Shown here piece after piece: positions 20,728 through 38,556 of a stretch of DNA of 64,000 bases. The DNA lies in assembly GCF_026427355.1 (NCBI RefSeq), contig NZ_CP102664.1:2542001-2606000 (forward strand), read 5' to 3'. A program made the translations under genes and the position numbers. Every line of letters starts with the position of its first letter. Position 1 is the first letter of the stretch. The DNA is from Sphingobium sp. JS3065. GTDB taxonomy: Bacteria; Pseudomonadota; Alphaproteobacteria; Sphingomonadales; Sphingomonadaceae. Below the pieces are notes generated by a model. The model was not told the DNA's origin. It saw only the letters and a list, made by a program, of their open reading frames with translations, and ran no database searches.

Positions 20728-20814
20728 TACGAATACATCTGCAAAATCTGGACTTCTGACCCAGATCGATTCAGCATCAATCCGATCCACCAGATGCCGG
20801 GACTAAACAACTAG
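20728..20814 (+). pseudogene. C-terminal fragment of IS481-like transposase
   Basis: The 28-codon frame YEYICKIWTSDPDRF, then INPIHQMPGLNN, and stop matches the extreme C-terminus of IS481-type transposases (usual ending ..YEYICK.W...P.RF....HQ.PG.N). Everything upstream is missing. A second, longer fragment of a related transposase is at 38691-39051 in the opposite orientation, so the island cargo is framed by inward-facing transposase ends. Confidence 0.7.
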
Positions 20815-21446
20815 CGCCAGGCGGGCGCCTGCGAGTCCACTATGCTCGCGCGCCGGAAACCCGGTCGTGCGCACGCCCTCTCGAGGTAAGCGCGGACGTG
20901 CGGTCCGAAATTGCCGCCGAGGCCAACAACGCGGTCTGCGAGATACAATGCGTAGCCGATCGCGATGTCGGCGATCGTGAACCGCCCGGCGCAGAGCCAC
21001 TCCCGATCCGCCAGCGCTGACTCGACAGCCTTGAGCCGGCCACTGAACCACCTTTCGTAATCCGCCGCCGGCTGTTCAGCTCGGTTTTCAGGCGCTTCGA
21101 GCTGCCGGTATCTCAAGACGATGGTTTGCGGGAAGGTCAGCGTTGCGTCGCTGTAGAACAACCAATTCAGGAACAACGGATAGTCTCCTTCATCCGGAGA
21201 TACCGCCAGCGGCGTCGGACCATAGCGCGTAGCCAAGTATAGGCAGATCGCAGTCGACTCCGTCATCCGGACCTCGCCGTCCACCAAAAACGGTATGGTG
21301 CCGATAGGATTGATGGCCAGATACTCCCTCGCAAGGGCTCTGGGCGGGAAGGGAAGCAGGACCGGCTCATACGGGACCCCCATCTCCTCCAGAGTCCAAA
21401 GCGGGCGCAGGGAACGCGCCTCCCGGCAATGATAGAGCTTAAGCAT
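20811..21446 (-). CDS. glutathione S-transferase family protein
   Basis: 211 residues. An N-terminal thioredoxin-like domain (MLKLYHCREARSLRPLWTLEE, with NPIGTIPFLVDG and the glutathione-binding TESTAI) is followed by a helical C-terminal domain with FTIADIAIGYAL. The catalytic residue is not clear. The first helix region has S12/R13. Its stop shares the CTAG with the stop of the IS481 fragment. It lies 10 bp behind the CoA ligase, possibly in one operon. Substrate unknown. Confidence 0.85.
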   Translation of the reverse strand: MLKLYHCREARSLRPLWTLEEMGVPYEPVLLPFPPRALAREYLAINPIGTIPFLVDGEVRMTESTAICLYLATRYGPTPLAVSPDEGDYPLFLNWLFYSDATLTFPQTIVLRYRQLEAPENRAEQPAADYERWFSGRLKAVESALADREWLCAGRFTIADIAIGYALYLADRVVGLGGNFGPHVRAYLERACARPGFRRASIVDSQAPAWR

Positions 21447-21456
21447 GAACAGCCTT

Positions 21457-23133
21457 TCAGCACTCCCCGAGATCAGCGATCATTGCCTCGCGCAGCAGGT
21501 ATTTCTGGACCTTGCCGGAAACGGTCATCGGGAAGGATTCTACGAAGCGGACATAACGCGGAACCTTATAGTGGGCGATCTGCCCGCGGCAGAAGGCGAT
21601 GATTTCGTCGGCATCCGCCGACGCTCCGACGCGGAGCTTGACGCAGGCGAGAACCTCCTCGCCGAACTTCGCATCGGGCACGCCGATCACCTGCACGTCC
21701 TCGACCGATGGGTGGGTGTAGATGAACTCCTCGATCTCGCGCGGGTAGATGTTCTCGCCTCCGCGAATGATCATGTCCTTGATGCGTCCAACAATGCGGC
21801 CGTACCCGGCCTCATCGATGACGGCGAGGTCGCCGGTGTGCATCCAGCCGTCGCGGACAGCGTCGGCGGTTTTGTCAGCGTCGTCCCAGTAGCCGAGCAT
21901 GACCGAGTAACCGCGCGTGCACAGCTCGCCCGGCTGGCCCCGCGGCACGGTCTCGCCCGTGCCCGGGTGGACGATCTTCACCTCGAGGTGCGGTTGGACG
22001 CGTCCGATCGTGCCGACCCGCCGCTCGATGGAGTCATCTAGCGCCGTCTGGAAGCTGACCGGGCTGGTCTCAGTCATGCCGTAAGCAATTCCGATGTCGC
22101 GCATGTGCATGCGGGTCATGACCTTGCGCATCACCTCGACCGGGCATGGCGAGCCGGCCATGAGGCCGGTGCGCAGGCTCGACAGGTCGAAGCGGCCGAA
22201 CTCGGGATGCTCGAGCGCGGCGATGAACATGGTCGGCACGCCGTGCAGCGCCGTGCAGCGCTCGGTCTCGACCGCCTCGAGGACGGCGAGCGGCTCGAAG
22301 CCCGCCGACGGATAGACCATCGTCGCTCCGTGTACCAGGCAGGCCAGGTTGCTCATCACCATCCCGAAGCAATGATAGAGCGGCACCGGGATGCACAGCC
22401 GATCGCCCTCTCCCAACCCCATACCAAGGCCGACAAAATAGGCATTGTTGAGCACATTGCGGTGCGACAGCGTCGCGCCCTTGGGCGAACCGGTGGTCCC
22501 GCTGGTGAACTGGATGTTGATGGGATCGTCCGGCTGAAGGCCCGCGGTGATGGTGGCGAGTTCCCGCTCTGATGCGTCCTTCCGCAGCGCAGCGACCTCG
22601 TCGAACTCGAGCCAACCAGGGCGCCGGTCGCCGCCGATCTTGATGATATGGGACAGTGCCGGCAGACTGTCTGACCGGACCTCGCTCGGCGAGCCTGCGC
22701 CCGTTGGGATCAGCGTCTCCACCATCGCGACATAGTCGCTCGTCTTGAACGAGGCTGCGCAAATAAGCGCCTTCACCCCAACTTTCCGCAGCGTGTATTC
22801 AAGCTCGGATGCGCGGTAGGCCGGGTTGATGTTGACCTGGATCATGCCCGCGCGCGCAGTGGCGAACTGAGCGATGGTCCACTCAGCGCAATTCGGCGCC
22901 CAAACCCCGACCCGGTCGCCGGGACGAAGTCCGAGCGCCAGCAGCCCCGCCGCAAATGCATCGGCCGCCGCCTTGAGCCCAGCCCAGGTGAGGCGGACGT
23001 TCTGGTGGCGCGATACCAGCGCCTCGGCCGCGGGCCAGCGCTGTGCCGCCAGTTCCAGCGCGGCGCCGATCGTGTGGTCGATCAGCGGCGGCTCAGTGGC
23101 GCCGACGACGTGGCTGAGTTGCTCTACCTTCAT
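21457..23133 (-). CDS. acyl-CoA ligase (AMP-binding, FadD/LcfB type)
   Basis: 558 residues from [12 protein letters not shown] start 39 nt upstream is also open. It activates a carboxylic acid with ATP and CoA. The ATP-binding motif is [19 protein letters not shown], followed by [38 protein letters not shown] and the C-terminal [22 protein letters not shown] and [10 protein letters not shown] (catalytic lysine). It closely resembles the ligase fragment at 63247-64000. A hairpin (23163-23181) lies upstream. In this island it could activate the acid freed by the nearby esterases, but that is inference. Confidence 0.9.
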
Positions 23134-23162
23134 CCAATTGACACCTATCCCCTGAGGTCGTT

Positions 23163-23181
23163 GAGCTCTCATCGAGAGCTC
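23163..23181. promoter_or_regulatory. palindrome upstream of the CoA ligase
   Basis: GAGCTCTC-ATC-GAGAGCTC, an 8-bp perfect inverted repeat 30 bp before the ligase start. A second inverted pair (GGCGGCGC..GCGCCGCC, 23192-23226) lies just beyond. Either could be an operator or the remains of a terminator from the broken receptor gene upstream. Confidence 0.35.
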
Positions 23182-23300
23182 TGAAAGTTATGGCGGCGCG
23201 CTTACCGTTTTGACAAGTGCGCCGCCACCATTTTGGAGGTCTCCTTATTCCCCCGGGCGCTGCGACCAAATTGCTACCCGGGAAAACGTACCTCCGGTAA

Positions 23301-23897
23301 TCATAGAAGCTCACGTCCAAGGTCTTCGCTGCGATCGGGGCTGGCCGGGATCAGCCCCAGCACCCCGCTTCCATTGGTCGTTTCATACCGCATCTCGATC
23401 GTTTCGTGCGTGAGGCGCGCACCAGCGGTCAGCCGCAGTTTGTCCGTGAGCCGATAGGTGCCCTGCCCATAGGCGGCATAGCTGCCCAGCTGCTGTTGCC
23501 AGAAACTGTCCGATCCCAGGAACGTCGTGAATCCGGGAGGGGGCGATTGTCCGAGCGTGGCCGCCAACAGGGCATCCTCCCGGACGCGCGCCTTCAGGAA
23601 GAACAGTCCGGCCTGATATTCGAAAGCACCTCCGGTCGGCGACGTCAGGCGAAGCTCATCGGAAAACTGCTTCGTCGTGATACCTCCGCCAAAAAACAGG
23701 ACAAGCGGAAGCGGGCTATAGTCGGCATCGAATGCCTGCGATGTTTTGAAACCGCGATAAGCCGCGATGCTCGTAAGGCTCAGGCCACTGTCGAATTGGT
23801 ACGATATCTTCAGGCGGCCGCCCCCGACCTTCAGATCATAGAAGGTCAGCCCATCATACGCACTCTTCGAATTATCCACGCCAGGGTTGATCATCAC
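23301..23897 (-). pseudogene. internal fragment of a TonB-dependent receptor
   Basis: About 195 residues of beta-barrel sequence, including QFSDELRLTSPTGGAFEYQAGLFFLKA and YRLTDKLRLTAGARLTHE. Signal peptide, plug domain and barrel end are all missing. It is related to, but clearly different from, the intact receptor at 34336-36684 (same ELRLTSP and Y.LTD.LR.TAG.R.TH motifs). Upstream, the sequence changes abruptly to a 27-bp repeat shared with 34028-34054. It looks like a receptor destroyed by IS-mediated deletion. Confidence 0.8.
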
Positions 23898-23908
23898 GGA
23901 TACTCTAA
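23882..23908 (-). repeat. 27-bp inverted repeat, left copy
   Basis: Read on the minus strand: TTAGAGTATCCGTG followed by ATGATCAACCCTG, identical to 34028-34054 on the plus strand. The TAG in it is the stop codon of the esterase gene. The right copy continues into an IS110-like transposase end. This one continues into the receptor fragment, so only the tip of the element is left here. Confidence 0.85.
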
Positions 23909-24849
23909 GCGGTCATTGCCGCTCTCGCGAGCAGTTCCTCGAGGCGCTCAACAACGGCGGCCGTCGCTTTGGCGGCAGCCGGCACGAGCGCGGACAGATT
24001 GGGGAATCCATGCGTCAGATGCTCGAACTCGACGAGATCGACCACCACCCCCGCCTCCCGCAGCCGATCGGCATAGGCGACAGCCTCGTCGCGCAGCGGA
24101 TCGACGGTCAGCACGACGACCACAGCCGGAGGCAAGCTGTCGAGGCGTTCCGCGGCAAGCGGTGAAATGCGCGGGTCGGCGCGATCATGGCCGCCGCAAT
24201 AACTTCCCATCATCTGCGGGAAAGTCTCGGTGCGCAGGCTCGGATCCGCGTTGGCGAGGCGAGACGGATAGGCATCCGCTTCGCTGCGAAGATCGACGGC
24301 GGGATAGAAGAGCAACTGAGCGTCGAAGTTCTTGCTGGCGCCGCTGCGCAGCTCCAGGGCGATGGCGGCGGCAAGATTGCCGCCCGCACTCTCGCCTCCG
24401 ATGACGACCGGGTGAGCCGCGCCGCCGAGTTCGCCGACATGATCGAGGACCCATCGGGCGGCGGCGAGCGAGTCCTCGAAGCCTGCCGGGAATGGATGCT
24501 CAGGCGCCAGCCGATACCCGCTCGCGACCACGACCATCGAGAGGTCGCGCGTCAGGCGCCGGGCAAGTGGTTCGATAAAATCGATGCTGCCCATTGCCCA
24601 ACCACCACCATGAAGGAGGTGCAAAGTGCCCCTGGGCGTGCCCGCCGGACGGAAGATGCGGATCGGCACGCTGCCAGCGAGGCTTGGGAGATCGTTGTTC
24701 TCAACATGGCCGATCTCAATTGGTCCCTCCGGCCCATGGAAAAGGGATGTCATGGACAATGTTTGTTTTCTCAACGCTGGAAAGTCGATCTCCCCGGAAG
24801 GGATCGGCAGCTGGTCAAGAATTTGCTGGAGTGCTGGATCGAGCGCCAT
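23905..24849 (-). CDS. alpha/beta hydrolase (HSL family esterase)
   Basis: 314 residues from MALDPALQQILDQL. Hormone-sensitive-lipase family: oxyanion motif HGGGW near residue 75, nucleophile elbow GGESAGGN near 148, catalytic Asp in VDPLRDEAV near 250 and His in HLTHGF near 283. No signal peptide, so cytoplasmic. It follows iolB by 4 bp and ends exactly at the 27-bp repeat. Enzymes of this family cut short-chain or aryl esters. Placement at the end of an inositol operon suggests it releases inositol or a related polyol from an ester, but the substrate is not known. Confidence 0.87.
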   Translation of the reverse strand: MALDPALQQILDQLPIPSGEIDFPALRKQTLSMTSLFHGPEGPIEIGHVENNDLPSLAGSVPIRIFRPAGTPRGTLHLLHGGGWAMGSIDFIEPLARRLTRDLSMVVVASGYRLAPEHPFPAGFEDSLAAARWVLDHVGELGGAAHPVVIGGESAGGNLAAAIALELRSGASKNFDAQLLFYPAVDLRSEADAYPSRLANADPSLRTETFPQMMGSYCGGHDRADPRISPLAAERLDSLPPAVVVVLTVDPLRDEAVAYADRLREAGVVVDLVEFEHLTHGFPNLSALVPAAAKATAAVVERLEELLARAAMTA

Positions 24850-24853
24850 AAAG

Positions 24854-25681
24854 TTAGTTTCCTTTAGTTGCAGCCGGTTTTGCCGACGAGCGCAAGATCC
24901 ACTCATGCGCGGGGTCATTGGCGAACACCCAGCTTCGGCGAGGTCCTGCCATCACATTCAGATAGTAGAGATCGTAGCCATGTGGCGCGCCGACCGGGTG
25001 GTAGCCACGCGGCACCATGACGACGTCGCCGTCCTCGACTGATATCGTCTCGTCTATCGAGCGATCGTCGGTGTAGACGCGCTGGAATGCGAAGCCCTGC
25101 CGCGGCGACAGCCGGTGGTAGTAGGTCTCCTCGAGGAAGGTCTCTTCGGGATAGGCGTCGCGATCATGCTTGTGCGGCGGGTAGCTCGACCAGTGACCGC
25201 CGGGCGTGATCACCTCGACCACAAGCAGGCTCTCGGCTTCCGCCTTGTCGTCAAGAATATTGCGTACGAAGCGCGTATTTGTGCCCTGCCCCCGCGTTTC
25301 GAGGCCGACATCCTCCGGCCGGATCACGCGAAGCTGGCCCTTGCCCGTAGCGGGTGCGGTGCAGATAGCGATCTCGGCAACGCCGACAGTCTCGATCCGG
25401 TAGCGCGTTCCAGCCGGCACATAGACCGAGGTAGGCGGACCGTCGAAGACGCCCGCGCGCGCACCCAGGCCGACGAAGTGCTCCTTGCCGCCGGTTACGC
25501 TGATCGTACCCGAAAGGATGACGAGGCAAGCCTCTCGGCCCGGCTCGTTACCCTCGTAAACCCGGCCGGGAGCCAGCCGGACGACGCGAAAACCGACATA
25601 GTTCCAGCCGGCGCTTTCGGGCGTGATGTCGAGCACGACGCCGCTTGCGTCGGGCGTTTTACTGCGGACGCGCAGGCTCAT
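24854..25681 (-). CDS. iolB: 5-deoxy-glucuronate isomerase
   Basis: 275 residues, IolB family cupin. Converts 5-deoxy-glucuronate to 2-deoxy-5-keto-gluconate in myo-inositol breakdown. Family motifs visible include GTISVTGGKEHFVGLGARAGVFDG, SYPPHKHDRD with metal-binding histidines, EETYYHR and PRGYHPVGAPHGYDLYYLNVMAGP. Its ATG overlaps the iolE stop (ATGA), so it is coupled to iolE. Confidence 0.94.
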   Translation of the reverse strand: MSLRVRSKTPDASGVVLDITPESAGWNYVGFRVVRLAPGRVYEGNEPGREACLVILSGTISVTGGKEHFVGLGARAGVFDGPPTSVYVPAGTRYRIETVGVAEIAICTAPATGKGQLRVIRPEDVGLETRGQGTNTRFVRNILDDKAEAESLLVVEVITPGGHWSSYPPHKHDRDAYPEETFLEETYYHRLSPRQGFAFQRVYTDDRSIDETISVEDGDVVMVPRGYHPVGAPHGYDLYYLNVMAGPRRSWVFANDPAHEWILRSSAKPAATKGN

Positions 25682-26571
25682 GCCACCAGCTCGGCATCGC
25701 GGGCGAGACGCTTTAGCGTGTCCAACCCGAGCTGCTGGTAGGAGCGAGGGTTCGCGACCGCAGGGTCCTGCTCCGCCTCGATCACGATCCAGCCCGTATA
25801 GTCGATCCGGGCAAGCTCGCGCATGAACGGTGCAAAGTCGTAGTCGCCATCTCCCGGTGTCGTGAACATGCCGCCAACCACTCCATCGAGAAAGCTGGTG
25901 CCGTCGGCGAGGAACGCCTTGTACCGGGCGGCGCGCACGTCCTTGCAGTGGACGTGGTTGATGCGTTCGGGCCGCTCGTGCGCGACCGTGACTGGGTCGA
26001 TCCCGCCGTAAAGTGCGTGGCCGGTGTCGAGCACCAACCCGACATGGTCGCCGGTCACCTCGAAGAAGCGGCGGAGATCGGCATCGGTTTCGACAACGGT
26101 GCCGAGATGGTGGTGATAGGCGAAGCGCATGCCCCTTTCGTTGACATAGGCCGCGACCGCATCCAGCCGCTCGCCGAAACGCACCCATGCATCGTCGGCT
26201 AGCTGCGGATGCGTGTCGAGCCGGCTTGATCGGTCGCCGTGCACCGCGTTCGAGGTTTCGGCGAGGATGAAGACACTCGACCCCATGGCTTCGAGTAGCG
26301 CCAAATGATCCACCATTGCTTCCATCTCGCCATCGGCGGCGCGGACCAGCAGGTTCGACGAGTACCAGCCGCCGACGACGTCGAGGCCGTAACCCGCCAT
26401 GATCGGCTTCAGCGTGGCGGGATCGCGGGGAAACTTGTTGCCGAGCTCGACACCGTTGAAGCCGATCTCCTTTACATCGGTCAGCAGCTCGTCCAGAGTC
26501 GTATCGCCGCCCAGTTCAGGCAGATCGTCATTAGCCCAGGCGATCGGGCTGGCGCCCCAGCGGATCGTCAT
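25678..26571 (-). CDS. iolE: inosose dehydratase
   Basis: 297 residues, xylose-isomerase-like TIM barrel. Converts 2-keto-myo-inositol (scyllo-inosose) to 3D-(3,5/4)-trihydroxycyclohexane-1,2-dione. Family features include IRWGASPIAWANDDLPELGGDTTLD at the N-terminus, FAYHHHLGTVVET, LDTGHALYGGIDP, NHVHCKDVR and EAEQDPAVANP. Stops overlap-coupled with iolD upstream and iolB downstream. Confidence 0.94.
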   Translation of the reverse strand: MTIRWGASPIAWANDDLPELGGDTTLDELLTDVKEIGFNGVELGNKFPRDPATLKPIMAGYGLDVVGGWYSSNLLVRAADGEMEAMVDHLALLEAMGSSVFILAETSNAVHGDRSSRLDTHPQLADDAWVRFGERLDAVAAYVNERGMRFAYHHHLGTVVETDADLRRFFEVTGDHVGLVLDTGHALYGGIDPVTVAHERPERINHVHCKDVRAARYKAFLADGTSFLDGVVGGMFTTPGDGDYDFAPFMRELARIDYTGWIVIEAEQDPAVANPRSYQQLGLDTLKRLARDAELVA

Positions 26572-28403
26572 CGAGATTGTCCCTTTTTCATCTTTTCATA
26601 AGTTGCACGGGCAGCAGCGCCCTCGCTGCGGATGGATATTTCCGGCACCGCCACGTCCCACCAGTGGCCACCTTCTTTGGTCGTGATCATCGGATCGGTG
26701 TCGATCACGATGACATAGCTCGTCGTCGAGGCTGCCGCGCGGGCGAGCGCCTTTTCCAGTTCGGCGATGCCGGTGACTTTCTCGGCTTCGGCACCAAGGC
26801 TGCGGGCGTGGGCGGCGAAGTCGATCGCAGGCAGCTTATCGTGCCGCGTATCAGCGAGCAGGTTGTTGAATGGCCGTCCACCAGTCGCCTGCTGCAACCG
26901 GTTGATGCAGCCATAGCCGCGATTGTCGAGCAACACGACGACGATCTTGGCGCCCAGCATCACCGAGGTGGCGAGCTCCGAATTGAGCATGAGGTAGCTG
27001 CCATCGCCGACCATGACGAACACGTCGCGATCCGGGCTAGCCATTTTGACGCCGAGTCCGCCGGCGATTTCGTATCCCATGCACGAATAGCCGTATTCGA
27101 CGTGGTAGCCGCCAGGCGCCTTCGCGCGCCACAGCTTGTGCAACTCGCCCGGCAGTCCGCCGGCCGCGCAGACAACCACCGCATCGTCCGCCGCCTGCCG
27201 CCACACCGCGCCGATCACCTGCGCATCGGACGGAAGCTCGCCGCCTGGTGCCGTCGCGACGTCGAAGGCCCGGTTCCACTCTGCAACCGCCGCTGCATTG
27301 GCTTCCTGCCATGCCTTCGGAGCCTGCCAGCCCGCCAGCGTCTGTGCCAGCGCAGCCACAACCGTGCGGGCATCGCCCACGACGCATTGTGCCCCATGCT
27401 TGGCTGCATCGCCCGGGGCGACATTGACCTGGAACAATGTCCCGTCGAAGAGCGTGCGCGAACCGGTGGTGAAGTCCTGCAGACGGGTGCCGATGCCAAT
27501 GACGAGATCGGCTTCGCGCGCTGCGCGATTGGCGGCGCTCGTGCCAGTCACGCCGATCGCACCGAGTGCCTGCGGGTGATCCCAGGCGAGCGCGCCCTTC
27601 CCTGCCTGGGTCTCGGCGACCGGTATGCCCGCCTGACCCGCCAACGACGCCAACACCGCCTCGGCGCGCGAATAGAGCACGCCCCCGCCGGCAACTATCA
27701 GCGGGCGCTGGGCGGAACGGAGCGCCTCAACGACTGCGTCGAACTCCGCCTCATCAGGCCGTACACGCCGCTGCCGCCATAGTCGCGGTTCGAAGAAGCT
27801 CACCGGATAGTCAAACGCCTCTGCTTGAACGTCCTGGCAGAGGGCGAGCGTGACCGGGCCGCAGGTGGCCGGGTCAGTCAGAACGGCCATGGCACGCGGC
27901 GCAGCATCGAGAATCTGCTCGGGCCGGATGATGCGGTCGAAGTAGCGGCTTATAGGCCGAAAGCAGTCGTTAGCGCTCACCGTTGCATCACCGAAGTCCT
28001 CGATCTGCTGGAGGACCGGATCAGGCCGCCGGCTGGCATAGACGTCGCCGGGCAGGAACAGCACCGGTAGCCGGTTGACGTGGGCCAGCGCCGCGGCGGT
28101 GACCATGTTCGTCGCGCCAGGTCCGATCGAGCTTGTGCAAGCCATGGCGCGCTCGCGGCGATTGGCCTTGGCAAAGGCTATTGCTGCATGCGCCATACCC
28201 TGCTCGTTGTGGGCACGGTAAGTCGGCATCGTGTCGGACATGCCCGCGAGTGCCTCGCCCAGCCCCGCGACGTTGCCGTGGCCAAAGATCGCCCAGACAC
28301 CGGCGAAATAGGGCAGCTCCTTGCCGTCGATCTCGACGCGCTGCGCCGCCATCCAGCGGACGAGCGCCTGCGCTGTGGTCAGCCGGATGGTTCGCACGCT
28401 CAT
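26568..28403 (-). CDS. iolD: 3D-(3,5/4)-trihydroxycyclohexane-1,2-dione hydrolase
   Basis: 611 residues from MSVRTIRLTTAQALVRWMAAQ. The frame is open upstream into iolC, but the conserved IolD start is this one. ThDP-dependent enzyme that opens the ring to 5-deoxy-glucuronate. An ThDP-activating Glu lies in AHNEQGMAHAAIAFAKAN, and the ThDP motif is VMVGDGSYLMLNSELATS..LLDNRGYGCIN near residues 460-495. TSSIGPGATNMVTAAALAH is typical of IolD. Overlaps iolC and iolE by 4 bp each. Confidence 0.95.
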   Translation of the reverse strand: MSVRTIRLTTAQALVRWMAAQRVEIDGKELPYFAGVWAIFGHGNVAGLGEALAGMSDTMPTYRAHNEQGMAHAAIAFAKANRRERAMACTSSIGPGATNMVTAAALAHVNRLPVLFLPGDVYASRRPDPVLQQIEDFGDATVSANDCFRPISRYFDRIIRPEQILDAAPRAMAVLTDPATCGPVTLALCQDVQAEAFDYPVSFFEPRLWRQRRVRPDEAEFDAVVEALRSAQRPLIVAGGGVLYSRAEAVLASLAGQAGIPVAETQAGKGALAWDHPQALGAIGVTGTSAANRAAREADLVIGIGTRLQDFTTGSRTLFDGTLFQVNVAPGDAAKHGAQCVVGDARTVVAALAQTLAGWQAPKAWQEANAAAVAEWNRAFDVATAPGGELPSDAQVIGAVWRQAADDAVVVCAAGGLPGELHKLWRAKAPGGYHVEYGYSCMGYEIAGGLGVKMASPDRDVFVMVGDGSYLMLNSELATSVMLGAKIVVVLLDNRGYGCINRLQQATGGRPFNNLLADTRHDKLPAIDFAAHARSLGAEAEKVTGIAELEKALARAAASTTSYVIVIDTDPMITTKEGGHWWDVAVPEISIRSEGAAARATYEKMKKGQSR

Positions 28404-30637: not shown

Positions 30638-31920
30638 TCCTGCTGTCCCGCCAGGATGTCAGCCGCCACGTCCCGGCTGCGGAACTGTAGCGACAGCCGT
30701 TCTGCATCGGCGAGGAGCTGGACCATGCAGACGAACACCAGGTCGTTGGTCGGGTCGACCCAGAACCAGCAACCGGCTGCACCGTCCCAGAAATAGGTAT
30801 CGCGTCCCAAGGCCACGCCGGCGGCTTGCGGGTCCGTGATGACCACGCCGTTATACGCATATTCGTAGCCGGGTCGCAGCCAGTGGGGCGCCGTGCCGAA
30901 GCCGCCTGTCAACAGATGCCGCGGCGTGTGGCTGCTCATCATCAGCGCGGCCGCCTCGGAGTTTAGAATTCGCCGGCCGTCGAGTTCCCCGCGGCCGAGC
31001 AGCATCCGGCCGAAGCGCAGATAATCGGGTGCGGTCGACACCAAACCGCCCCCCCCCGAGGCGAGGACTGGGAGCCTGTCATAGGGAAGCACCAGATCGC
31101 TGGGCGACAGCGCTGCGACATTGTCATAGTGGAGGCTGTCGGCGTCCGAACTCATCTCGACGAGTTCGTCGCCGGCCAACGAGTAGAGAGCGGCGAAGCG
31201 GTCACGCTTGCTTGCCGGCACCATGAAGTCTGTGTCGACCATGCCGAGCGGTTCGAAGATGCGCTCCAGCATGAAGTCGCGCAAGCGCATGCCACTCAAG
31301 CGCTCGACGATGATCCCCTGCACGTCCATGGCCACGCTGTAGCGCCAGCCCGTGCCCGGATCGAAGGCAAGCGGAACCTTCGCCAGTCGAGTCAGATACT
31401 CCTCGGCCGTGATATCGTGTGGAATGATGGGAACGCCCGCCGCATGGAAGGCGCCATCGACCGGCTCGTCGGTAAAGCCGTACGAGAAGCCCACCTGGTG
31501 TGTCATAAGATGTTCGAGCGTCGGCTGCCTATGGGGCGCAGCGAGCAGGAGGGCACCATCGGGCTCAGACCGGCGTAGCACCTGCAAGCCGGCGAGTTCG
31601 GGAAGATGCTTGGCGATCGGATCCGACGGTGACCATTTGCCCTCGCCCCACAATATCATCATCGCGACCGCGGTAACCGGCTTGGTCATCGAAAAGAGCC
31701 GGAAAATGCTATCCGCCTGCATCCGCTCGGCAGCCGCCACATCGCGCCGGCCGATGGCCGAGGCGTGCGCGACCGCGCCCTTGTGCCACACCATCGTCAC
31801 CGCGCCGCTCAGCAGTCGGCGGTCGACCACGTCTTGAACAGGCGCGTCGGCAGCGCACCATGGCCCGGACCTCGCCCGCCCGGGCAAGGCTGATACGGGA
31901 TTCTCCGCCGCTAACGTCAC
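30634..31920 (-). CDS. serine hydrolase of the beta-lactamase fold (class C-like esterase)
   Basis: 428 residues, GTG start. The SxxK motif is FSMTK near residue 77-80. The Y-x-x motif is in TGWRYSVAMDVQG near 190, and HQVGFSYGF and GGGGLVSTAPDYLRFGRMLL are typical of EstB/PBP4-like esterases. No signal peptide is evident, so it is unlikely to act as a secreted beta-lactamase. The family includes esterases and transesterases. It sits between the RpiR regulator and iolC on the same strand, so it is probably co-regulated with inositol breakdown. Confidence 0.85.
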   Translation of the reverse strand: MTLAAENPVSALPGRARSGPWCAADAPVQDVVDRRLLSGAVTMVWHKGAVAHASAIGRRDVAAAERMQADSIFRLFSMTKPVTAVAMMILWGEGKWSPSDPIAKHLPELAGLQVLRRSEPDGALLLAAPHRQPTLEHLMTHQVGFSYGFTDEPVDGAFHAAGVPIIPHDITAEEYLTRLAKVPLAFDPGTGWRYSVAMDVQGIIVERLSGMRLRDFMLERIFEPLGMVDTDFMVPASKRDRFAALYSLAGDELVEMSSDADSLHYDNVAALSPSDLVLPYDRLPVLASGGGGLVSTAPDYLRFGRMLLGRGELDGRRILNSEAAALMMSSHTPRHLLTGGFGTAPHWLRPGYEYAYNGVVITDPQAAGVALGRDTYFWDGAAGCWFWVDPTNDLVFVCMVQLLADAERLSLQFRSRDVAADILAGQQD

Positions 31921-32010: not shown

Positions 32011-32865
32011 CTATGAGGCGGCCAACGTCGGCTCGGCCTTGCGGGCCGCGAAGCCAATAGCGAGCGACTGCGCCAGACACATCGAAGCGGCGAGCGAACG
32101 GAATCCGCGTACCTCCGACTCCCGAACCTGCAGCACGAGGCTCGCGTTCTTGGCTATGGGCCCGATGACGCTGTCGGTGATCGAGATGATGGGGCAGCTT
32201 CCTGCGGCCGCTTCGACGAGGCTGATGGTCTCCGAGCTATAGGGCGCGAAGCTGATTGCGACGATCAGGTCACTCGCTTCGAGGCCGCCGGTCTGCTGGA
32301 GGTGGAGTCCCGCGACGCCATCTACGAGCACGATGCGCTTGTCGGTTTGCGCCAGCAGATAGGCGAGGTAGCTGGCGACCGGGAAGGATCGACGGAAGCC
32401 AGCGATGAACACCGTGCGCGCTCGATCGAGCAGGTCGATGGCCTCGGAGAGTTCACGTTGGCCGAGCGCGTGATTGAGGTTCTCAAGCGCCAATATATTG
32501 CCCTCGACGAACTCTGAGAGCAGGTGCCGTGGACCCTCCAGATCCCCGGTAGCTGCATAGCGGTGCTGGCGGATGCGCTCGGCGTAACCGAGCGAGCGGT
32601 CCTCCCGCAGCAGCCCCTCCCGGATCAGCCGCTGCATCGGGTTAGCGCCGGAAAAGCCAAAGGCCTGGGCAAAACGGACGATTGCCGAAGGCTGGACCTT
32701 GCTTCGCTCGGCGATCACCGCGAGCGTCTCGAACGCCATGTCGTTGGGCTCCTCCAGGACATGGCGGGCGATCCGCTGCAATCGGTCGCTGAGCTCGTCG
32801 TAACGCTCGCGGATCGCGGTCAGGAACTCGTCGAGGTCACTAGGGGCCGAAACCGTCTCATTCAT
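32011..32865 (-). CDS. MurR/RpiR family transcriptional regulator
   Basis: 284 residues from MNETVSAPSDLDEFL. An ATG 90 nt upstream is in frame but its leader is not conserved. The N-terminal HTH_6 domain (IARHVLEEPNDMAFETLAVIAERSKVQPSAIVRFAQAFGF) is followed by a SIS phosphosugar-binding domain (FIAGFRRSFPVASYLAYLL; DLIVAISFAPYSSETISLVEAA). Such proteins sense a sugar phosphate. Regulators of iol genes in several bacteria belong to this family. It is divergent from iolG and is the likely local regulator. Confidence 0.9.
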   Translation of the reverse strand: MNETVSAPSDLDEFLTAIRERYDELSDRLQRIARHVLEEPNDMAFETLAVIAERSKVQPSAIVRFAQAFGFSGANPMQRLIREGLLREDRSLGYAERIRQHRYAATGDLEGPRHLLSEFVEGNILALENLNHALGQRELSEAIDLLDRARTVFIAGFRRSFPVASYLAYLLAQTDKRIVLVDGVAGLHLQQTGGLEASDLIVAISFAPYSSETISLVEAAAGSCPIISITDSVIGPIAKNASLVLQVRESEVRGFRSLAASMCLAQSLAIGFAARKAEPTLAAS

Positions 32866-33047
32866 CTTGCTATCATTCCTTCCCGCGGCAAGTTCTGCTG
32901 AACACCCGTTCCGTTGGATAACGCAATGAGTAACGCGTTCTGAAGAATGTTCCAAGCCACCTAGAATTTCATATCATCTTCATGTAGAATTATCCTTCTA
33001 TATGACGCGCACGGTTCTCCCGTGCATCTCGGCAGGATTGAGACATT

Positions 33048-34031
33048 ATGACATACAGCGTGGCCCTCTTTGGCGCTGGCAGAATAGGGCGCATCCATGC
33101 GACCAACATCGCAGCACACCCTGAACTGAGGCTTGCCTGGGTTTGCGATAGGAATGTGGAGGCTGCTCAGGAACTCGCGTCGCGCTTTGGGGCGCGCGTC
33201 GGCGGAGCAAACGAAGCCATCGCCGATTCGGCAGTGACGGGAGTCCTGGTGGCGACCAATACCGACACCCACCTCGATCTCAGCCTGCGCGCGAATCAGG
33301 CGGGCAAGGCGGTATTCTGCGAGAAGCCGGTCGATCTAGACCTTACTCGCGCACGCGCCGCCGCAAAAACGCTCGGCGACGCCCCAGTCTTCGTTGGCTT
33401 CAATCGCCGATTCGACCCTAACTTCGCCGCGCTGAAGGCGAAGCTCGTCTCGGGCGAGGCGGGTGCGCTCGAGTCGCTGCAAGTCACGAGCAACGACCCG
33501 TCGCCACCGCCCGTCGACTATGTACGGACATCGGGCGGACTGTTCGCCGACATGACCATTCATGACTTCGACATGGCACGGTTCCTGCTCGGCGAAGAAC
33601 CTGTCGAATTGTTCGCCTGGGGAAGCTGCCTGGTCGACCCGGCAATCGGCGAAGCCGGCGACATCGATACGGCGCGCGTTCTGCTGCGCACCGCATCGGG
33701 CAAGCTTGCGGTCATTGCCAACAGCCGGCGCAGCGGCTTCGGCTACGACCAGCGCGTGGAGGCCTTTTGCTCCCGGGGCCTCGTCGCGGCCGGCAACATG
33801 ACCGAGTCAACGGTCCAGGTCTGGCGCGAGGACGGCGCTCGTGCCGCGCCATTCCAGAACTTCTTCCTCGAGCGCTACGCTGCGGCGTTTCGCAATGAAC
33901 TGAGCCATTTTGCCGACATTCTCGCTGGACGCGCGCTGCCGCTCGTCAATTTTCATGACGGTGTCGCGGCGCTGGCCTTGGCCGACGCGGCGCGGCGTTC
34001 GCTGGCCAGGGGCGCATCGGTTGCGGTTTAG
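33048..34031 (+). CDS. iolG: myo-inositol 2-dehydrogenase (Gfo/Idh/MocA family)
   Basis: 327 residues. NAD-binding motif GAGRIGRIHATNI at residues 9-21, EKPVDLDL near 92 with the catalytic lysine, and GGLFADMTIHDFDMARFLLGE near 170 with the substrate-binding Asp/His. It oxidises myo-inositol to 2-keto-myo-inositol. Close relatives act on other inositol isomers or sugars, so substrate is not fixed by sequence. Context (iolB, C, D, E) makes the inositol role likely. Its TAG stop is part of the 27-bp repeat. Confidence 0.88.
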   Translation: MTYSVALFGAGRIGRIHATNIAAHPELRLAWVCDRNVEAAQELASRFGARVGGANEAIADSAVTGVLVATNTDTHLDLSLRANQAGKAVFCEKPVDLDLTRARAAAKTLGDAPVFVGFNRRFDPNFAALKAKLVSGEAGALESLQVTSNDPSPPPVDYVRTSGGLFADMTIHDFDMARFLLGEEPVELFAWGSCLVDPAIGEAGDIDTARVLLRTASGKLAVIANSRRSGFGYDQRVEAFCSRGLVAAGNMTESTVQVWREDGARAAPFQNFFLERYAAAFRNELSHFADILAGRALPLVNFHDGVAALALADAARRSLARGASVAV

Positions 34032-34160: not shown

Positions 34161-34263
34161 GCGTGGTGATCCGCACCGGAGCCGTCAGCGCCGCCTTGCC
34201 TTCGGCGTGCTCTCCAAGGCCAAGTTGGACTACGGTATTTGCAAAAATATTTCCATATTAACA

Positions 34264-34293
34264 TTGACAGAATATATATTCCATTCTTATAAA
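34264..34293 (+). promoter_or_regulatory. promoter of the TonB receptor with palindrome in the spacer
   Basis: TTGACA at 34264-34269, 18-nt spacer, TATAAA at 34288-34293. The spacer contains the perfect 12-bp palindrome GAATATATATTC (34270-34281), a good position for a repressor. The SD GGGAGG is at 34324-34329 and the ATG at 34336. Confidence 0.72.
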
Positions 34294-34335
34294 AAGGACA
34301 GCCGCGCAGAATCGGCAAGGACATGGGAGGATTTA

Positions 34336-36684
34336 ATGAGAAGCAAGGTTGTTCTGCTGGGCAGCGTCGCCCTGGTCGGCACACTTGGAGCAGTCTCTGC
34401 TCCTGCGCGAGCGGAAGCGTCCGCCAACTCTGCTCCAGCCGGCGCGGAGCAAACCGAATCGACCAGCCGCAAGGGACTGCAAGACATCATCGTCACGGCG
34501 CGGCGCCGCAGTGAGAGCGCCCAGACCGTGCCCGTCGCGGTCAGCGTCGCGTCAGCAGCCAGCCTTGAGCAGCATCAGGTTCTCAACGCCTATCAGCTGG
34601 TGAATTTGACCCCTAGCCTTCAGGTGCGATCGACCAATCAGCAGACGGGCGCTCTCAACTTCACGATTCGCGGTATCGGCACGTCCGTTTTTGGTCCGCA
34701 GGTCGAATCCAGCGTCGGCGTCGTGATCGACGACGTGGTGATGAGCCGGCCGCAATTCGGCAATGTCCAGTTCTTCGATCTTGACCGGGTCGAGGTGCTG
34801 CGTGGTCCGCAAGGCATGCTGTTCGGCAAGAATGCCTCGGCCGGCCTGATCAACATCGTCACGGCCCAGCCCCGGCTGAACCGCACCGAATTCTTGGCAA
34901 ATATTCAATATGGCAACACGACGGCTCCTGGTGCCGGCAATGTCGCGTCGCTTCAGGTCGCCGGGAATATGCCGATAACCGGCAATTCCGCACTGCGCGT
35001 TTCCGGCTTTGTTACGCGGCAGGACGCGGTTGTGCGCGACACCAGTCTCCGCCAGAATCTCGGTAACACGGCGGTCGGCGGCCGCTTGAAATTTCTTTGG
35101 GAGCCGAGCGACAGCATCCGTCTGACGGTTGCAGGCGATTACCAGAATTCGAAAGGCCCCGGCGAAGGCGTGCTCGTGCACCGTTTCACCGCGCCCGGCG
35201 GGCTGATCTCCACGATCAACGCCAGCAATGGGGTGTTTGCCTCGCCAAAGAACACCAGCATGGCGACCGATATAGCGAACACCAACGGCTCCGATGTGTA
35301 CGGGGTGTCGCTGAAGGCAGAGATCGAGCTTGGCGGCGGATATACGCTGACGAACGTGCTCGCACACCGCCGTGCCAAGACAAACACCTCGATCGACACC
35401 GACACGACGACGGCGGACCTGTTCAGCGTCAATACGGGGGGCTTGCGGCGTCACCAGACTACGGAAGAACTGCGTCTGACCTCACCGGCGGACGGCCGGT
35501 TCAGCTATCAGCTCGGCCTTTTCTATCTGGACCTCAACGCGCGCGAGTTTCTCCTGCAAGGGGCAAATCTCGGCCTGCCCTCTCCCGGTCCCGGTCTCTC
35601 CTTTTTGGGAGGCTACGCCGACGGTACTGCGCTCATCAAGAGCTATGCCGGTTTCTTTGAAGGACAGTATAAACTTACCGACTCCCTGCGGGTGACCGCA
35701 GGCGGCCGTTACACCCATGACGATCTTCGCTACCATCTGGATCTAACGAACCCGGCAGCTCTGCTGCCCCTTTATGGCCCCGACAAGCATTTTTCGGTCC
35801 AAACGAAGAAGGACAATTTCTCCTATCGCTTCGGCGCTGACTACACGATTGCGCCTGACGTGCTCGTCTATGCCACCTACTCGCGGGGCTACAAGGGGCC
35901 GACTTTCGACCAGTTGACCGGTACTTTAGTGGATCCGGAAATTCCGAAGAGCTACGAGCTTGGCGTCAAATCCACGCTCTTTGATCGCAGGCTCCGGCTC
36001 AACATGGCCCTGTTCGACACCACCTTCGACGGGTTCCAGACGCAGGCCCAACGACCCGGTACCGCAGCGGGCTTTATGACCCTGAATGCAGGGCAGTTGA
36101 AGTCCCGCGGGGTAGAGGTCGAGTTCACCGCACTGCCGTTCGATGGCCTGACCATAAGCGGTGGGACCACCTTTAACGACACGAAGTACGTCGGTCTCTC
36201 TGGCATCCCCTGTACTTACGGGCTTCCGGCAGGCACTGGCAGGAACCAGTGTGATCCCAGTACCAATACAACGGATGTCAGTGGGAACCAGCTCGATAAT
36301 GCTCCGCGCTGGACCACCTCATTCACCGCGCGGTACGAACGTCCTGTGTCGAGCGAATGGGTCGGCTTCCTGCAGGGGGACGTCTATCATCGCAGCAGCT
36401 TCTACTTCGGCCAGACGCGCGATCCACACCTGCGCGTCGGGGCCAACGCGATCTTCGGATTATCGGCTGGCGCCCATACCCAGGACGACCGGCTGTCGAT
36501 TACCGCTTTCGTGCGCAATCTGTTCGACAAGCGAGTCCCAAGTTACATTCTCCAGGATCCGGTGTCAGCTTTTTACGTGGGTCCGTCGGGCGTTAGCGAC
36601 GCTGCCTTGGGCGGCAATTACTGGAGCCAGTTCGGACCGAATTCATTTCGCACGGTCGGCGTGACGGTGAATTACCGGATGTAG
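34336..36684 (+). CDS. TonB-dependent receptor
   Basis: 782 residues from MRSKVVLLGSVALVG. A frame opens further upstream, but the signal peptide (cleavage after APARA, ~residue 26) fixes this start. A TonB-box-like DIIVTARRRSES is followed by the plug (TIRGIGTSVFGPQVESSVGVVIDDV; RVEVLRGPQGMLFGKNASAGLINIVT) and a complete 22-strand-type barrel. The last residue is Met rather than the usual aromatic. It is the FecA/CirA-like type abundant in sphingomonads that imports siderophores, glycans or aromatics. Position beside iolG and CocE-like hydrolase suggests uptake of the island's substrate. Confidence 0.92.
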   Translation: MRSKVVLLGSVALVGTLGAVSAPARAEASANSAPAGAEQTESTSRKGLQDIIVTARRRSESAQTVPVAVSVASAASLEQHQVLNAYQLVNLTPSLQVRSTNQQTGALNFTIRGIGTSVFGPQVESSVGVVIDDVVMSRPQFGNVQFFDLDRVEVLRGPQGMLFGKNASAGLINIVTAQPRLNRTEFLANIQYGNTTAPGAGNVASLQVAGNMPITGNSALRVSGFVTRQDAVVRDTSLRQNLGNTAVGGRLKFLWEPSDSIRLTVAGDYQNSKGPGEGVLVHRFTAPGGLISTINASNGVFASPKNTSMATDIANTNGSDVYGVSLKAEIELGGGYTLTNVLAHRRAKTNTSIDTDTTTADLFSVNTGGLRRHQTTEELRLTSPADGRFSYQLGLFYLDLNAREFLLQGANLGLPSPGPGLSFLGGYADGTALIKSYAGFFEGQYKLTDSLRVTAGGRYTHDDLRYHLDLTNPAALLPLYGPDKHFSVQTKKDNFSYRFGADYTIAPDVLVYATYSRGYKGPTFDQLTGTLVDPEIPKSYELGVKSTLFDRRLRLNMALFDTTFDGFQTQAQRPGTAAGFMTLNAGQLKSRGVEVEFTALPFDGLTISGGTTFNDTKYVGLSGIPCTYGLPAGTGRNQCDPSTNTTDVSGNQLDNAPRWTTSFTARYERPVSSEWVGFLQGDVYHRSSFYFGQTRDPHLRVGANAIFGLSAGAHTQDDRLSITAFVRNLFDKRVPSYILQDPVSAFYVGPSGVSDAALGGNYWSQFGPNSFRTVGVTVNYRM

Positions 36685-36743
36685 GTGAAAAGGTGCCGGC
36701 ATCGTCTGCACGCGTAGTCGGTACTGATCTGCCTACAGCCGAT

Positions 36744-36765
36744 GTCCTCCAGCACTTTGGAGGAC
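36744..36765. repeat. hairpin 1 between receptor and CocE-like gene
   Basis: GTCCTCCA-GCACTT-TGGAGGAC, 8-bp perfect arms, 60 bp after the receptor stop. Confidence 0.6.
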
Positions 36766-36771
36766 GCCCCC

Positions 36772-36806
36772 CAGCTGGTAAACGGTGTTTCACCGTTTAC
36801 CAGCTG
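36772..36806. repeat. hairpin 2 between receptor and CocE-like gene
   Basis: Perfect 16-bp arms CAGCTGGTAAACGGTG / CACCGTTTACCAGCTG around TTT, ending 16 bp before the CocE-like start and overlapping the place where its SD should be. No T-run follows. It could sequester the ribosome site, act as an operator or end receptor transcription. Confidence 0.7.
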
Positions 36807-36822
36807 CCGCGCAGGAAAACAT

Positions 36823-38556
36823 ATGAAGTCCATATTCGAAGATAACGTAAAGATCCTCATGCGCGACGGCGTCGGGCTTGCCACGAACGTCTGGCGACCT
36901 GAAGGGGGCGAGCGGGTGCCCGCCTTGCTGCTGCGTAGCCCCTATGGAAAAGAAGAGGTGGCGCACGGCCTTGCACCGAACGTGTTTGCCCTCGTGCGCG
37001 CCGGCTATGCCGTCGTGATGCAGGATGTGCGGGGGACGTTTAATTCCGACGCCGAGTTCGTACCGCATGTACACGACGTAGACGACGGCGAGGACACGAT
37101 CCGCTGGCTGGCCGAACAACCATGGTGTGACGGTTCGGTGGGCATGTGGGGAGGATCCTACCTCGGGCTCGTTCAATGGCAGGCGGCCGCGACGGGGACG
37201 CCCGCTCTCAAGGCGATTGTTCCGGTTGTCACGAGCGCCGATCTCTACCGCGCGCCCTGGTATTCGCCCGGCGGCGCGCTGTCGCTCCATAGCTTAATCA
37301 CGTGGAGCGTAGCGATGGCGATGAACGCAGCAGTTCGCAAGCTTTCCCAAGGTGAGGGTGAGCCAGCGGATGTCCAACAGCTCGCCGCCATGCTGCAGAA
37401 CATCGATCGGATCATGTGGGAGACGCCGGTGGCCGACAAGCCATTGGTCACCAAATATATACCCTGGCTCAACGAGATGTTGGCGCACCCCAGCCGCGAC
37501 GAGTTTTGGACGTCACAATCAGCGGTCGACAAGGCCCAACAGATCAAGACGCCGGCGCTGTCCATTTCCGGATGGTATGACCTTTTCGTGACGCAGCAGC
37601 TTGCCGATTACGTGACGATGCAAGAGCGCGCTGGTTCCGAGGGCGCGCGCAACGGACAACGGCTCATTGTCGGGCCGTGGAGTCACAGCCAGACCGTCGG
37701 TTGCAACGGCGTGTTCCCTGATCGCGATTTCGGTGCGGCGGCGAGCGCGATGGCGGCCCAGCTGACACCCGCGCACCTCGCCTTCTTCGACCGGTGGTTG
37801 AAAGGAAGGGAGGATGCCCTGGACGGCTCGTCACCGGTGCGCCTCTTCGTCATGGGTGTCGACCAGTGGCGGGACGAGCAGTCCTGGCCGCTCCACGACA
37901 CGAAGTTCGTCGACTATCATCTGGATGGGGTGGGCGCGGCCAACACCGCCAATGGCAACGGCCTGCTCACTGTCGATCCCGCCACGCGCGACGAGGCCGA
38001 TCACTATCTCTACGATCCTCGCCGTCCGGTGCCCTCCGTCGGCGGCAACACGCTGGCTTTCGGATTCAACGGACCGGTCGATCAGTCGGCAGTGGAAGCC
38101 CGCGACGATGTTCTCTGCTTCAGCAGCGCCGTTCTTGATCGCCCACTCGAAGTCACGGGACCCATCTCGCTCAAGCTCTTCGTGTCATCTTCGGCGGTGG
38201 ATACGGACTTCACCGCCAAGCTGGTCGACGTGTTCCCGGACGGACGGGTTATCCCGCTCTGTGAGGGCATTCTGCGGATGCGGTACCGCAAGTCGCTTGC
38301 GGAGCCGGTAACGATGTCCCCAGGTGAAGTTTTCGAGATCACGATCGATGTGGGCGTGACGTCGAACGTCTTTCTTCCCGGCCACCGCCTCCGGCTCGAA
38401 GTCTCGAGCAGCAACTTCCCGCGCTACGACCGCAACAGCAATACCGGAGGCAACATCAGCGCAGAGCGCGAAGCCGACATGGTCGTGGCGGTAAATCGCA
38501 TCCATCGTGGGCCAACCTGCCCCAGCCGTCTGATCCTGCCGATCATAGAGCGCTAA
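36823..38556 (+). CDS. CocE/NonD family hydrolase
   Basis: 577 residues from MKSIFEDNVKILMRDG. The frame is open to 36742, but that part runs through the two hairpins. X-Pro dipeptidyl-peptidase S15-type domain with nucleophile GGSYLG (Ser near residue 111) and YGKEEVAHGL; C-terminal jelly-roll domain (SSAVDTDFTAKLVDVFPDGR; LPGHRLRLEVSSSNFPRYDRN). The family holds cocaine esterase, alpha-amino-acid ester hydrolases and glutaryl acylases. No signal peptide is seen. Third hydrolase of the island. Substrate unknown, an ester or amide is likely. Confidence 0.88.
   Translation: MKSIFEDNVKILMRDGVGLATNVWRPEGGERVPALLLRSPYGKEEVAHGLAPNVFALVRAGYAVVMQDVRGTFNSDAEFVPHVHDVDDGEDTIRWLAEQPWCDGSVGMWGGSYLGLVQWQAAATGTPALKAIVPVVTSADLYRAPWYSPGGALSLHSLITWSVAMAMNAAVRKLSQGEGEPADVQQLAAMLQNIDRIMWETPVADKPLVTKYIPWLNEMLAHPSRDEFWTSQSAVDKAQQIKTPALSISGWYDLFVTQQLADYVTMQERAGSEGARNGQRLIVGPWSHSQTVGCNGVFPDRDFGAAASAMAAQLTPAHLAFFDRWLKGREDALDGSSPVRLFVMGVDQWRDEQSWPLHDTKFVDYHLDGVGAANTANGNGLLTVDPATRDEADHYLYDPRRPVPSVGGNTLAFGFNGPVDQSAVEARDDVLCFSSAVLDRPLEVTGPISLKLFVSSSAVDTDFTAKLVDVFPDGRVIPLCEGILRMRYRKSLAEPVTMSPGEVFEITIDVGVTSNVFLPGHRLRLEVSSSNFPRYDRNSNTGGNISAEREADMVVAVNRIHRGPTCPSRLILPIIER

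Follow-up and report, generated by a model that had tools for sequence, protein, structure and literature searches.

Comparison with described systems

The breakdown of inositol to DHAP and malonate semialdehyde by IolG, IolE, IolD, IolB and IolC is an established pathway. Acylsugars are defence compounds of the Solanaceae, and the plant acylsugar acylhydrolases are carboxylesterases that remove acyl chains from them. Among the beta-lactamase-fold esterases, PDB 7u1b, 7pp3 and 4ivi and Est-Y29 share family and SxxK motif with the esterase of the locus described here; we know of no linkage of esterases of this type to iol genes. A bacterial route for acylsugar breakdown was not found in the literature, among the matches listed. 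Tomato roots have been reported to exude acylsugars (PMC7961088, in excerpt).

According to the available part of PMC2597717, the IolR module of Caulobacter crescentus comprises inositol catabolic genes, an inositol regulator and a GGAA-N6-TTCC operator, features that it has in common with the locus of Sphingobium sp. JS3065. The same source describes an ABC inositol transporter in C. crescentus, whereas none was present in the island frames scanned, and it is esterases, a CoA ligase and a TonB receptor that join the island module. The acylsugar acylhydrolases, which are plant enzymes, were likened to the island esterases by their described activity, not by sequence. Taken as a whole, the route proposed below, in which the island was gained by horizontal transfer and serves the catabolism of inositol in acylated (esterified) form, is considered slightly more probable than its negation.

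Genomic island at tRNA-Pro

Positions refer to the window, i.e. the whole 64,000-nt stretch of JS3065 DNA that was analysed (NZ_CP102664.1). The segment of interest is a 19.3-kb tRNA-Pro genomic island (20435-39756), with the following borders.

20357..20433, + strand: tRNA-Pro (GGG), at which the island is integrated (ARAGORN)
39710..39756, + strand: right attachment site, repeating the 3' end of tRNA-Pro in direct orientation
38185..39420, - strand: integrase remnant (PF13356)

The 3' end of the tRNA-Pro (20389-20434) recurs at the right border with 95.7% identity over 47 bp, and in the integrase frame the Arm-DNA-binding domain alone is recognisable (PF13356, residues 2-58). The empty site, with the right flank directly after tRNA-Pro, was observed in 13 of the 29 relatives fetched (11 continuous and 2 as two collinear pieces). 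The original prediction, which had been made from the letters of the window, placed the gene content correctly but overlooked this island.

Inositol catabolic genes

24854..25660, - strand: iolB, 5-deoxy-glucuronate isomerase, approximate start (TIGR04378, 347 bits, cut-off 205)
25678..26571, - strand: iolE, inosose dehydratase (TIGR04379, 361.7 bits, cut-off 290)
26568..28430, - strand: iolD, approximate start, frame from 28718 (TIGR04377, 941 bits, cut-off 715)
28400..30331, - strand: iolC fused to a DUF2090 aldolase (NF047869, 748 bits, cut-off 600)
33048..34031, + strand: iolG-like GFO/IDH/MocA dehydrogenase (Pfam)

It is apparent that iolC-DUF2090, iolD, iolE and iolB are present where they had been predicted, all with scores above the NCBIfam cut-offs. 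A GFO/IDH/MocA dehydrogenase likewise lies at the place given for iolG; its assignment as iolG is putative, being drawn from its Pfam family, its position and an identity of 55-56% to plasmid genes annotated as idhA.

No dedicated inositol permease was found among the 13 scanned frames of 20811-38556, nor any ABC or other inner-membrane transporter among the island frames scanned. An iolA gene lies outside the island in the same genome, at C2:769997 (TIGR01722, 665.5 bits, cut-off 448.5), and a full-length PF00083 sugar porter, a candidate permease, at C1:611596. Because these candidates exist elsewhere in the genome, the lack of iolA or a permease in the island was rejected as a mark of a special pathway, and the earlier argument from the missing permease to a larger substrate falls away.

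Accessory genes

20811..21446, - strand: glutathione S-transferase (GST), last gene of the minus run (Pfam)
21457..23172, - strand: acyl-CoA ligase, PRK12583 subfamily, likely start ~23133 (852 bits, cut-off 832)
23301..23897, - strand: second TonB-dependent receptor, remnant of 198 aa (PF00593)
23905..24849, - strand: HSL-type carboxylesterase (HGGG, GESAG; PF07859)
30634..31920, - strand: serine esterase of the beta-lactamase fold with SMTK and YSV motifs, opening the minus run (PF00144)
34207..36684, + strand: TonB-dependent receptor, likely start 34336 (Pfam plug and barrel)
36742..38556, + strand: CocE/NonD-type hydrolase (GGSYLG), likely start 36823 (TIGR00976, 534.6 bits, cut-off 66.3)

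Profile searches located the GST, the AMP-binding CoA ligase, the three hydrolases, the TonB receptor and the RpiR regulator as originally predicted. The three hydrolases had also been described as unrelated in fold, which holds for the beta-lactamase fold; HSL (PF07859) and CocE (PF02129) presumably both belong to the alpha/beta-hydrolase-type clan, so two fold classes are represented rather than three. The closest PDB relatives of the beta-lactamase-fold esterase are mostly esterases, and the best relatives of the CocE/NonD-type hydrolase are 84% and 79% identical. The HSL frame extends from 24918; the likely start, which matches the orthologs, is 24849, 4 bp past the iolB stop.

The catalytic motifs of the hydrolases are intact. 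A hydropathy heuristic detected no signal-peptide-like segments in these proteins, and because such segments are absent, the suggestion that hydrolysis takes place inside the cell is supported. The N terminus of the TonB receptor (a 782-aa database entry) is signal-peptide-like by hydropathy. The 198-aa receptor fragment at 23301-23897, unmentioned in the original prediction, is 41% identical to the second receptor of two plasmid clusters and 37-38% identical to the first.

Regulator and predicted operators

32011..32955, - strand: RpiR-family regulator, predicted IolR (PF01418, PF01380; 76-77% to plasmid iolR)
31936..31951, no strand: predicted IolR operator, palindrome TGGAA-N6-TTCCA directly after a TATAAA-like box
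32985..33000, no strand: possible operator TAGAA-N6-TTCTA in the rpiR-iolG intergenic space, pattern set afterwards
34269..34282, no strand: possible operator, differing from GGAA-N6-TTCC at one position, in promoter-like sequence ahead of the likely receptor start

The palindrome TGGAA-N6-TTCCA occurs once in the window, versus 0.017 expected, and stands ahead of the esterase gene both there and in the plasmids (loci L118, L121, L122 and L123). In the available text of PMC2597717, GGAA-N6-TTCC is the Caulobacter inositol motif, so that the predicted operator ahead of the esterase-iolC operon would match the inositol operator of that species. The broader pattern TRGAA-N6-TTCYA was picked only after its second site had been seen. 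The operators at the receptor promoter are imperfect, and this counts against an acylinositol substrate.

Related clusters on Sphingobium plasmids

A search for the same neighbourhood in other genomes, as the original prediction had proposed, revealed that orthologs of four accessory genes recur beside iol on plasmids of Sphingobium sp. RC1, TomTYG64, TomTYG46 and TomMM7A (AP027307, AP027329, AP027325 and AP027312). These four clusters have iolR, the serine hydrolase, iolCDEB, the CoA ligase and idhA in common with the island, and differ from it in being plasmid-borne, in gene order, in having iolA and further ligases, and in lacking CocE and GST. Orthologs of the beta-lactamase-fold esterase (69-74%) are situated directly before iolC, which they overlap, and those of the CoA ligase (73-75%) directly before idhA, in all four clusters; orthologs of the HSL esterase (68-69%) and of the TonB receptor (75%) were found in two of the four, TomTYG46 and TomMM7A. 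It had been allowed that hydrolases and receptor might never be linked to iol genes in homologous clusters; the plasmid clusters display that linkage, in the case of the receptor in two of the four. The plasmid orthologs and the IolR-type site thus tie the esterase, HSL, ligase and receptor to iol, as was originally supposed for the whole set. CocE and GST have no counterparts in the plasmid iol clusters and for that reason were rejected as core members of a conserved set.

Some features of the plasmids count against acylinositol degradation. The RC1/TomTYG64 iol cluster has no adjoining HSL ortholog or receptor, an HSL at 49% and a receptor at 34% being present elsewhere on the plasmid, and the plasmid ligase ortholog scores 805, i.e. 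below the PRK12583 cut-off of 832. The soil origin of the Tom strains was also counted against it: most derive from alpha-tomatine-treated soil and only RC1 from roots (PMC10653915, in excerpt). The available main text of that paper has 0 mentions of inositol, and no functional description of the clusters was found in the literature searched.

The TomTYG46 cluster additionally encodes two ligases, an SDR and an MFS protein, and genes for two Abhydrolase_3/BD-FAE proteins lie close by; one of these ligases is nearest to the acetate-CoA ligase and MbcS models, at scores below their cut-offs. Extra genes in RC1 encode a ligase, an MFS protein and two Abhydrolase_3/BD-FAE-type proteins.

Distribution beyond plasmids

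The esterase and the receptor are rare in the sampled genomes. At an E value of 1e-80, the esterase was detected in 5 of 396 genomes of the order, including that of JS3065, the other four at 51-53%; at 1e-90 it was found in 1 of 94 genomes of the genus, its own. At 1e-180, with 2 candidates scored per genome, the receptor was likewise found in its own genome alone (1 of 397 in the family). In the scan of genome contigs for iol loci the best 80 were kept, several of them short. The orthologous accessory set was present in 0 of 91 other iol loci among the matches listed (two duplicates, some short).

Relatives of the esterase and receptor at 66-87% do occur in other sphingomonads and in metagenomes, where the presence of iol was unchecked, a point against an acylinositol substrate. 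In Sphingobium AN558 (207,930), Sphingomonas mali (375,165) and one metagenome contig (31,547), the longest contigs carrying the two relatives are equal in size, and because of these matching sizes the two are probably on the same contigs. Two further observations count against such a substrate: in Rhizorhabdus argentea the relatives lie on contigs of different size, and in the same-genus genome G218, which has a 54% receptor next to an HSL-type gene (36%), iolC was not found at 1e-100.

An ordinary iol locus (L181) also has a TonB receptor, though of another kind, together with an MFS permease and a phosphatase of the PhoD type; the mere proximity of such a receptor to iol is therefore not unusual. 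At a further iol locus (L182), Abhydrolase_3 and CocE-type genes adjoin iolG at only 32% and 27%, which may be a case of convergence.

Proposed function and alternatives

In the proposed route, an amphipathic ester of inositol would pass the outer membrane through the TonB receptor, and some permease would carry it through the inner membrane. The beta-lactamase-fold and HSL esterases, perhaps with CocE, are predicted from their motifs and lack of signal-peptide-like segments to remove the acyl groups in the cytoplasm, and the PRK12583-type ligase, from its family, to activate the acids so released, which would then enter beta-oxidation. Degradation of the inositol core by IolG, IolE, IolD, IolB and IolC-DUF2090 would yield DHAP and malonate semialdehyde, the latter being finished by an MmsA-type dehydrogenase encoded elsewhere in the genome. 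The RpiR regulator would repress the minus operon via the predicted TGGAA-N6-TTCCA operator. The natural substrates are most likely acylinositols from plants whose aliphatic acyl groups are of short to medium chain length. Because most of the gene set recurs on plasmids of relatives, the data suggest that these sphingomonads use esterified inositol, for example of plant origin, as a nutrient.

Alternatively, the esterases, ligase and receptor could act on an ester unconnected with inositol (of a xenobiotic, lipid or terpenoid), an ordinary inositol operon being no more than their companion on mobile DNA. In favour of this, the locus is a genomic island, conservation alongside iol does not extend to CocE and GST, a related receptor stands next to an HSL-type gene in G218, where iolC was not found, and the esterases of a second pTomRC1a module occur apart from iol. 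Nevertheless, this explanation is considered unlikely: the plasmid esterase and ligase, by overlapping iolC and directly preceding idhA, lie inside the iol gene run, the island HSL begins only 4 bp past the iolB stop, and the predicted operator is common to island and plasmids. It is improbable that the locus serves free inositol, with the receptor aiding uptake at low concentration and the hydrolases acting on compounds that occur with inositol. The flanking of L181 by a TonB receptor and an MFS permease would accord with such a role, but the L181 receptor gave no tblastn match to the island receptor at 1e-5, and two or three esterases and a ligase would be left unexplained.

An aromatic inositol ester, whether one of the phenolic inositol esters of dandelion latex or an auxin-inositol conjugate, is a very improbable substrate. 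No recognised aromatic-ring gene was found among the island frames scanned or among the TomTYG46 and TomMM7A cluster annotations, and the ligase is assigned to a subfamily of fatty-acid CoA ligases. CocE-type enzymes do include a benzoyl esterase, which would suit such a compound. In dandelion latex, phenolic inositol esters are one of three classes that each make up 5-7% of the fresh mass (PMC4701418, in excerpt). Aromatics were kept among the candidates because the nearest PDB sequences of the ligase include a feruloyl-CoA synthetase and a gene annotated as a monooxygenase lies upstream in RC1.

If acylinositol degradation is correct, a mobile set for deacylation and core catabolism would offer a testable explanation of how root and soil sphingomonads feed on acylsugars, and would provide new esterases for acylated polyols. 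It is tentatively suggested that this could be the first recognised bacterial system for plant acylinositols, one that is mobile and IolR-controlled, imports whole molecules, deacylates them in the cytoplasm and catabolises the acyl chains as well as the core, and that a sister module on pTomRC1a may serve acylsucroses. Cultivated-tomato acylsugars have been described as sucrose-based (PMC11444274, in excerpt), and this chemistry was counted against an acylinositol substrate.

Second esterase module on pTomRC1a

In the second module on pTomRC1a, an esterase of the HSL type and one of the beta-lactamase fold accompany ligases and a receptor, and genes for a GH68 enzyme and a fructokinase lie nearby. 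This module is only suggestive, because insertion-sequence genes intervene between the fructokinase and the esterases. The methylcrotonyl-CoA carboxylase cluster of pTomRC1a was rejected as specific evidence; relatives of its alpha subunit were found in 792 plasmid records at 1e-100. The two examined of ten other plasmid records with GH68 relatives are plain sucrose-type loci with no esterase directly beside GH68, and one of them has GDSL esterases ~8 kb away.

An island carrying an extended inositol module

Segment 20435-39756 of the window is a genomic island at tRNA-Pro, and its integrase has decayed; the contig measures 3.56 Mb in a genome of 5.1 Mb. The 3' end of the tRNA gene (20389-20434) recurs as a direct repeat at 39710-39756 (95.7% over 47 positions).

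Features of the segment
20433: 3' terminus of tRNA-Pro, the integration site
23301-23897, minus-strand run: TonB-receptor remnant, between the HSL esterase and CoA ligase genes
38185-39420: frame of the integrase remnant, with the Arm domain alone retained

For an empty-site comparison, secD loci were taken from the 30 of 92 genus genomes with a match, which, the window's own being included, gave 29 relatives. The tRNA gene follows secD in all 29, and the DNA to the right of the island directly follows the tRNA in 13 (continuously in 11, as two collinear pieces in two); other DNA is found there in the remaining relatives. The GH108 gene on the right-hand side is present in 14 of the 29. In one relative (L163), DNA resembling the island's left end follows the same tRNA. 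Among genus genomes iolC was detected in 2 of 94, and across the family in 11 of 397 genomes, the window's own being counted in each.

Profile matches from Pfam and NCBIfam bore out the gene list of the original prediction. Scores for iolC-DUF2090, iolD, iolE and iolB exceeded the NCBIfam cut-offs of equivalog or exception models; the iolG label of the GFO/IDH/MocA gene comes solely from its family and position. On the minus strand the order is beta-lactamase-fold esterase, iolC, iolD, iolE, iolB, HSL esterase, receptor remnant, CoA ligase and GST, and iolG, the TonB receptor and CocE run divergently to the RpiR gene. A second CocE-type gene, 41% identical, occurs in the same genome (G000:C1:1294841-1296565).

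Recurrence on Sphingobium plasmids

Relatives of iolC were found at 1e-100 in 134 plasmid records, with seven Sphingobium records at 75.9-77.3%. The cluster comparison rests on four of these seven, from strains RC1, TomTYG64, TomTYG46 and TomMM7A; the first two show equal identities to the window, and the others represent two further versions.

Identity of window proteins to plasmid counterparts
RpiR: 76-77%
Beta-lactamase-fold esterase: 69-74%
iolC: 77-78%
iolD: 78-79%
iolE: 72-76%
iolB: 79-80%
CoA ligase: 73-75%
iolG versus plasmid idhA: 55-56%
HSL esterase: 68-69% (TomTYG46 and TomMM7A)
TonB receptor: 75% (TomTYG46 and TomMM7A)

All four clusters share the order regulator, serine hydrolase (annotated as hypothetical in TomTYG46, but matching PF00144), iolC, iolD, iolE, iolB, iolA, AMP-binding protein and idhA. 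Those of TomTYG46 and TomMM7A additionally contain LipH, another AMP-binding protein, a dehydrogenase and a TonB receptor. Among the receptors compared, the remnant at 23301-23897 is closest to a second receptor further along these two clusters (41%, versus 37-38% to the first). The esterase and iolC are separated in the window by a 302-bp gap (30332-30633), where the plasmid versions overlap. Recurrence of the neighbourhood held for the esterase and ligase in four clusters and for the HSL esterase and receptor in two, but not for CocE and the GST, which have no counterpart in the four iol clusters compared.

Specificity of the linkage to iol genes

The island proteins were compared at 1e-5 with 91 other iol loci (L003-L082 and L179-L189, of which L179 and L181 duplicate L003 and L004). 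No matches were obtained for the beta-lactamase-fold esterase or the GST, two for the HSL esterase (32% and 27%), one each for CocE (27%) and the ligase (31%), and three for the TonB receptor (26-28%, two of them in one locus). Within the sampled loci, the linkage of esterase, ligase and receptor to iol genes is specific. An ordinary iol locus, L181, carries a different TonB receptor, an MFS permease and a PhoD-type phosphatase (4154-6838 and 16054-18806). In L182 (2789-5907), from another genus, Abhydrolase_3 and CocE-type genes directly adjoin iolG, possibly a convergent recruitment.

In a search of 5.8 billion proteins, Rhizorhabdus argentea, Sphingomonas mali and Sphingobium AN558 each gave a relative of the receptor and one of the esterase. 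The longest contig recorded for each of the two proteins has the same length in Sphingomonas mali and in Sphingobium AN558, as it does for one metagenome contig, which suggests that they share a contig; in Rhizorhabdus argentea the lengths differ. Against an inositol-ester reading stands G218, another genome of the genus, in which a 54% receptor adjoins an HSL-type gene (36%; L112 1501-4757) and no iolC is found at 1e-100, so that the receptor-HSL pairing exists apart from iol.

Predicted operator sites

The window has a single TGGAA-N6-TTCCA palindrome, against 0.017 expected from 60 first-order Markov simulations; it adjoins a TATAAA-like box ahead of the esterase gene, and the palindrome is found in the equivalent position in the four plasmid loci. 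The Caulobacter inositol module has the motif GGAA-N6-TTCC; of two copies upstream of its iolC, mutation of one raised expression and mutation of the other did not (PMC2597717). In TomTYG46 and TomMM7A, exact GGAA-N6-TTCC sites also lie 262 and 588 bp ahead of the point where the second receptor is annotated to begin. A related palindrome between rpiR and iolG in the window, and one-mismatch sites upstream of the receptor in the window, TomTYG46 and TomMM7A, are weaker evidence, since the window holds 34 sites when up to one mismatch is allowed. A second exact site in the window lies just after CocE (38559); chance alone would give about one.

Proposed function and candidate substrates

Taken together, this is an inositol module extended with esterases, a ligase and a receptor, mobile and recurrent in sphingomonads. 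Its function is likely degradation of an ester. The plasmids partly support the proposed system for inositol esters or conjugates, CocE and the GST excepted. All three hydrolases retain catalytic motifs and, by a hydropathy heuristic rather than a trained predictor, have no hydrophobic N-terminal stretch (the receptor has one); hydrolysis is therefore predicted to be cytoplasmic, in line with the suggestion that it occurs inside the cell. The ligase matches the fatty-acid CoA ligase PRK12583 (852 bits, cut-off 832); its TomTYG46 ortholog, at 805 bits, falls below the cut-off. The simplest use of esterases, ligase and iol enzymes would be of an inositol bearing several acyl groups. Further ligases and nearby Abhydrolase_3/BD-FAE proteins in the TomTYG46 and RC1 regions are what a mixed-acyl substrate would require.

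Acylsugars with an inositol core have been reported in eggplant and in S. quitoense (PMC11444274, PMC7386920), and phenolic inositol esters from dandelion latex (PMC4701418). Tomato roots make acylsugars (PMC11870507), which tomato is reported to exude (PMC7961088); those of cultivated tomato are termed sucrose-based (PMC11444274). Most strains of PMC10653915, a paper whose main text gave no match to inositol, were obtained from soil treated with tomatine, RC1 coming from the roots of tomato. A literature search found no paper with acylsugar and Sphingobium together.

The RC1 plasmid pTomRC1a (L190, AP027307.1 45000-94000) carries a second HSL esterase, 49% identical to the window's, with a beta-lactamase-fold esterase, ligases, a receptor and LacI, near GH68 and fructokinase genes. 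This second set is suggestive of a sister module for a sucrose core (acylsucrose).
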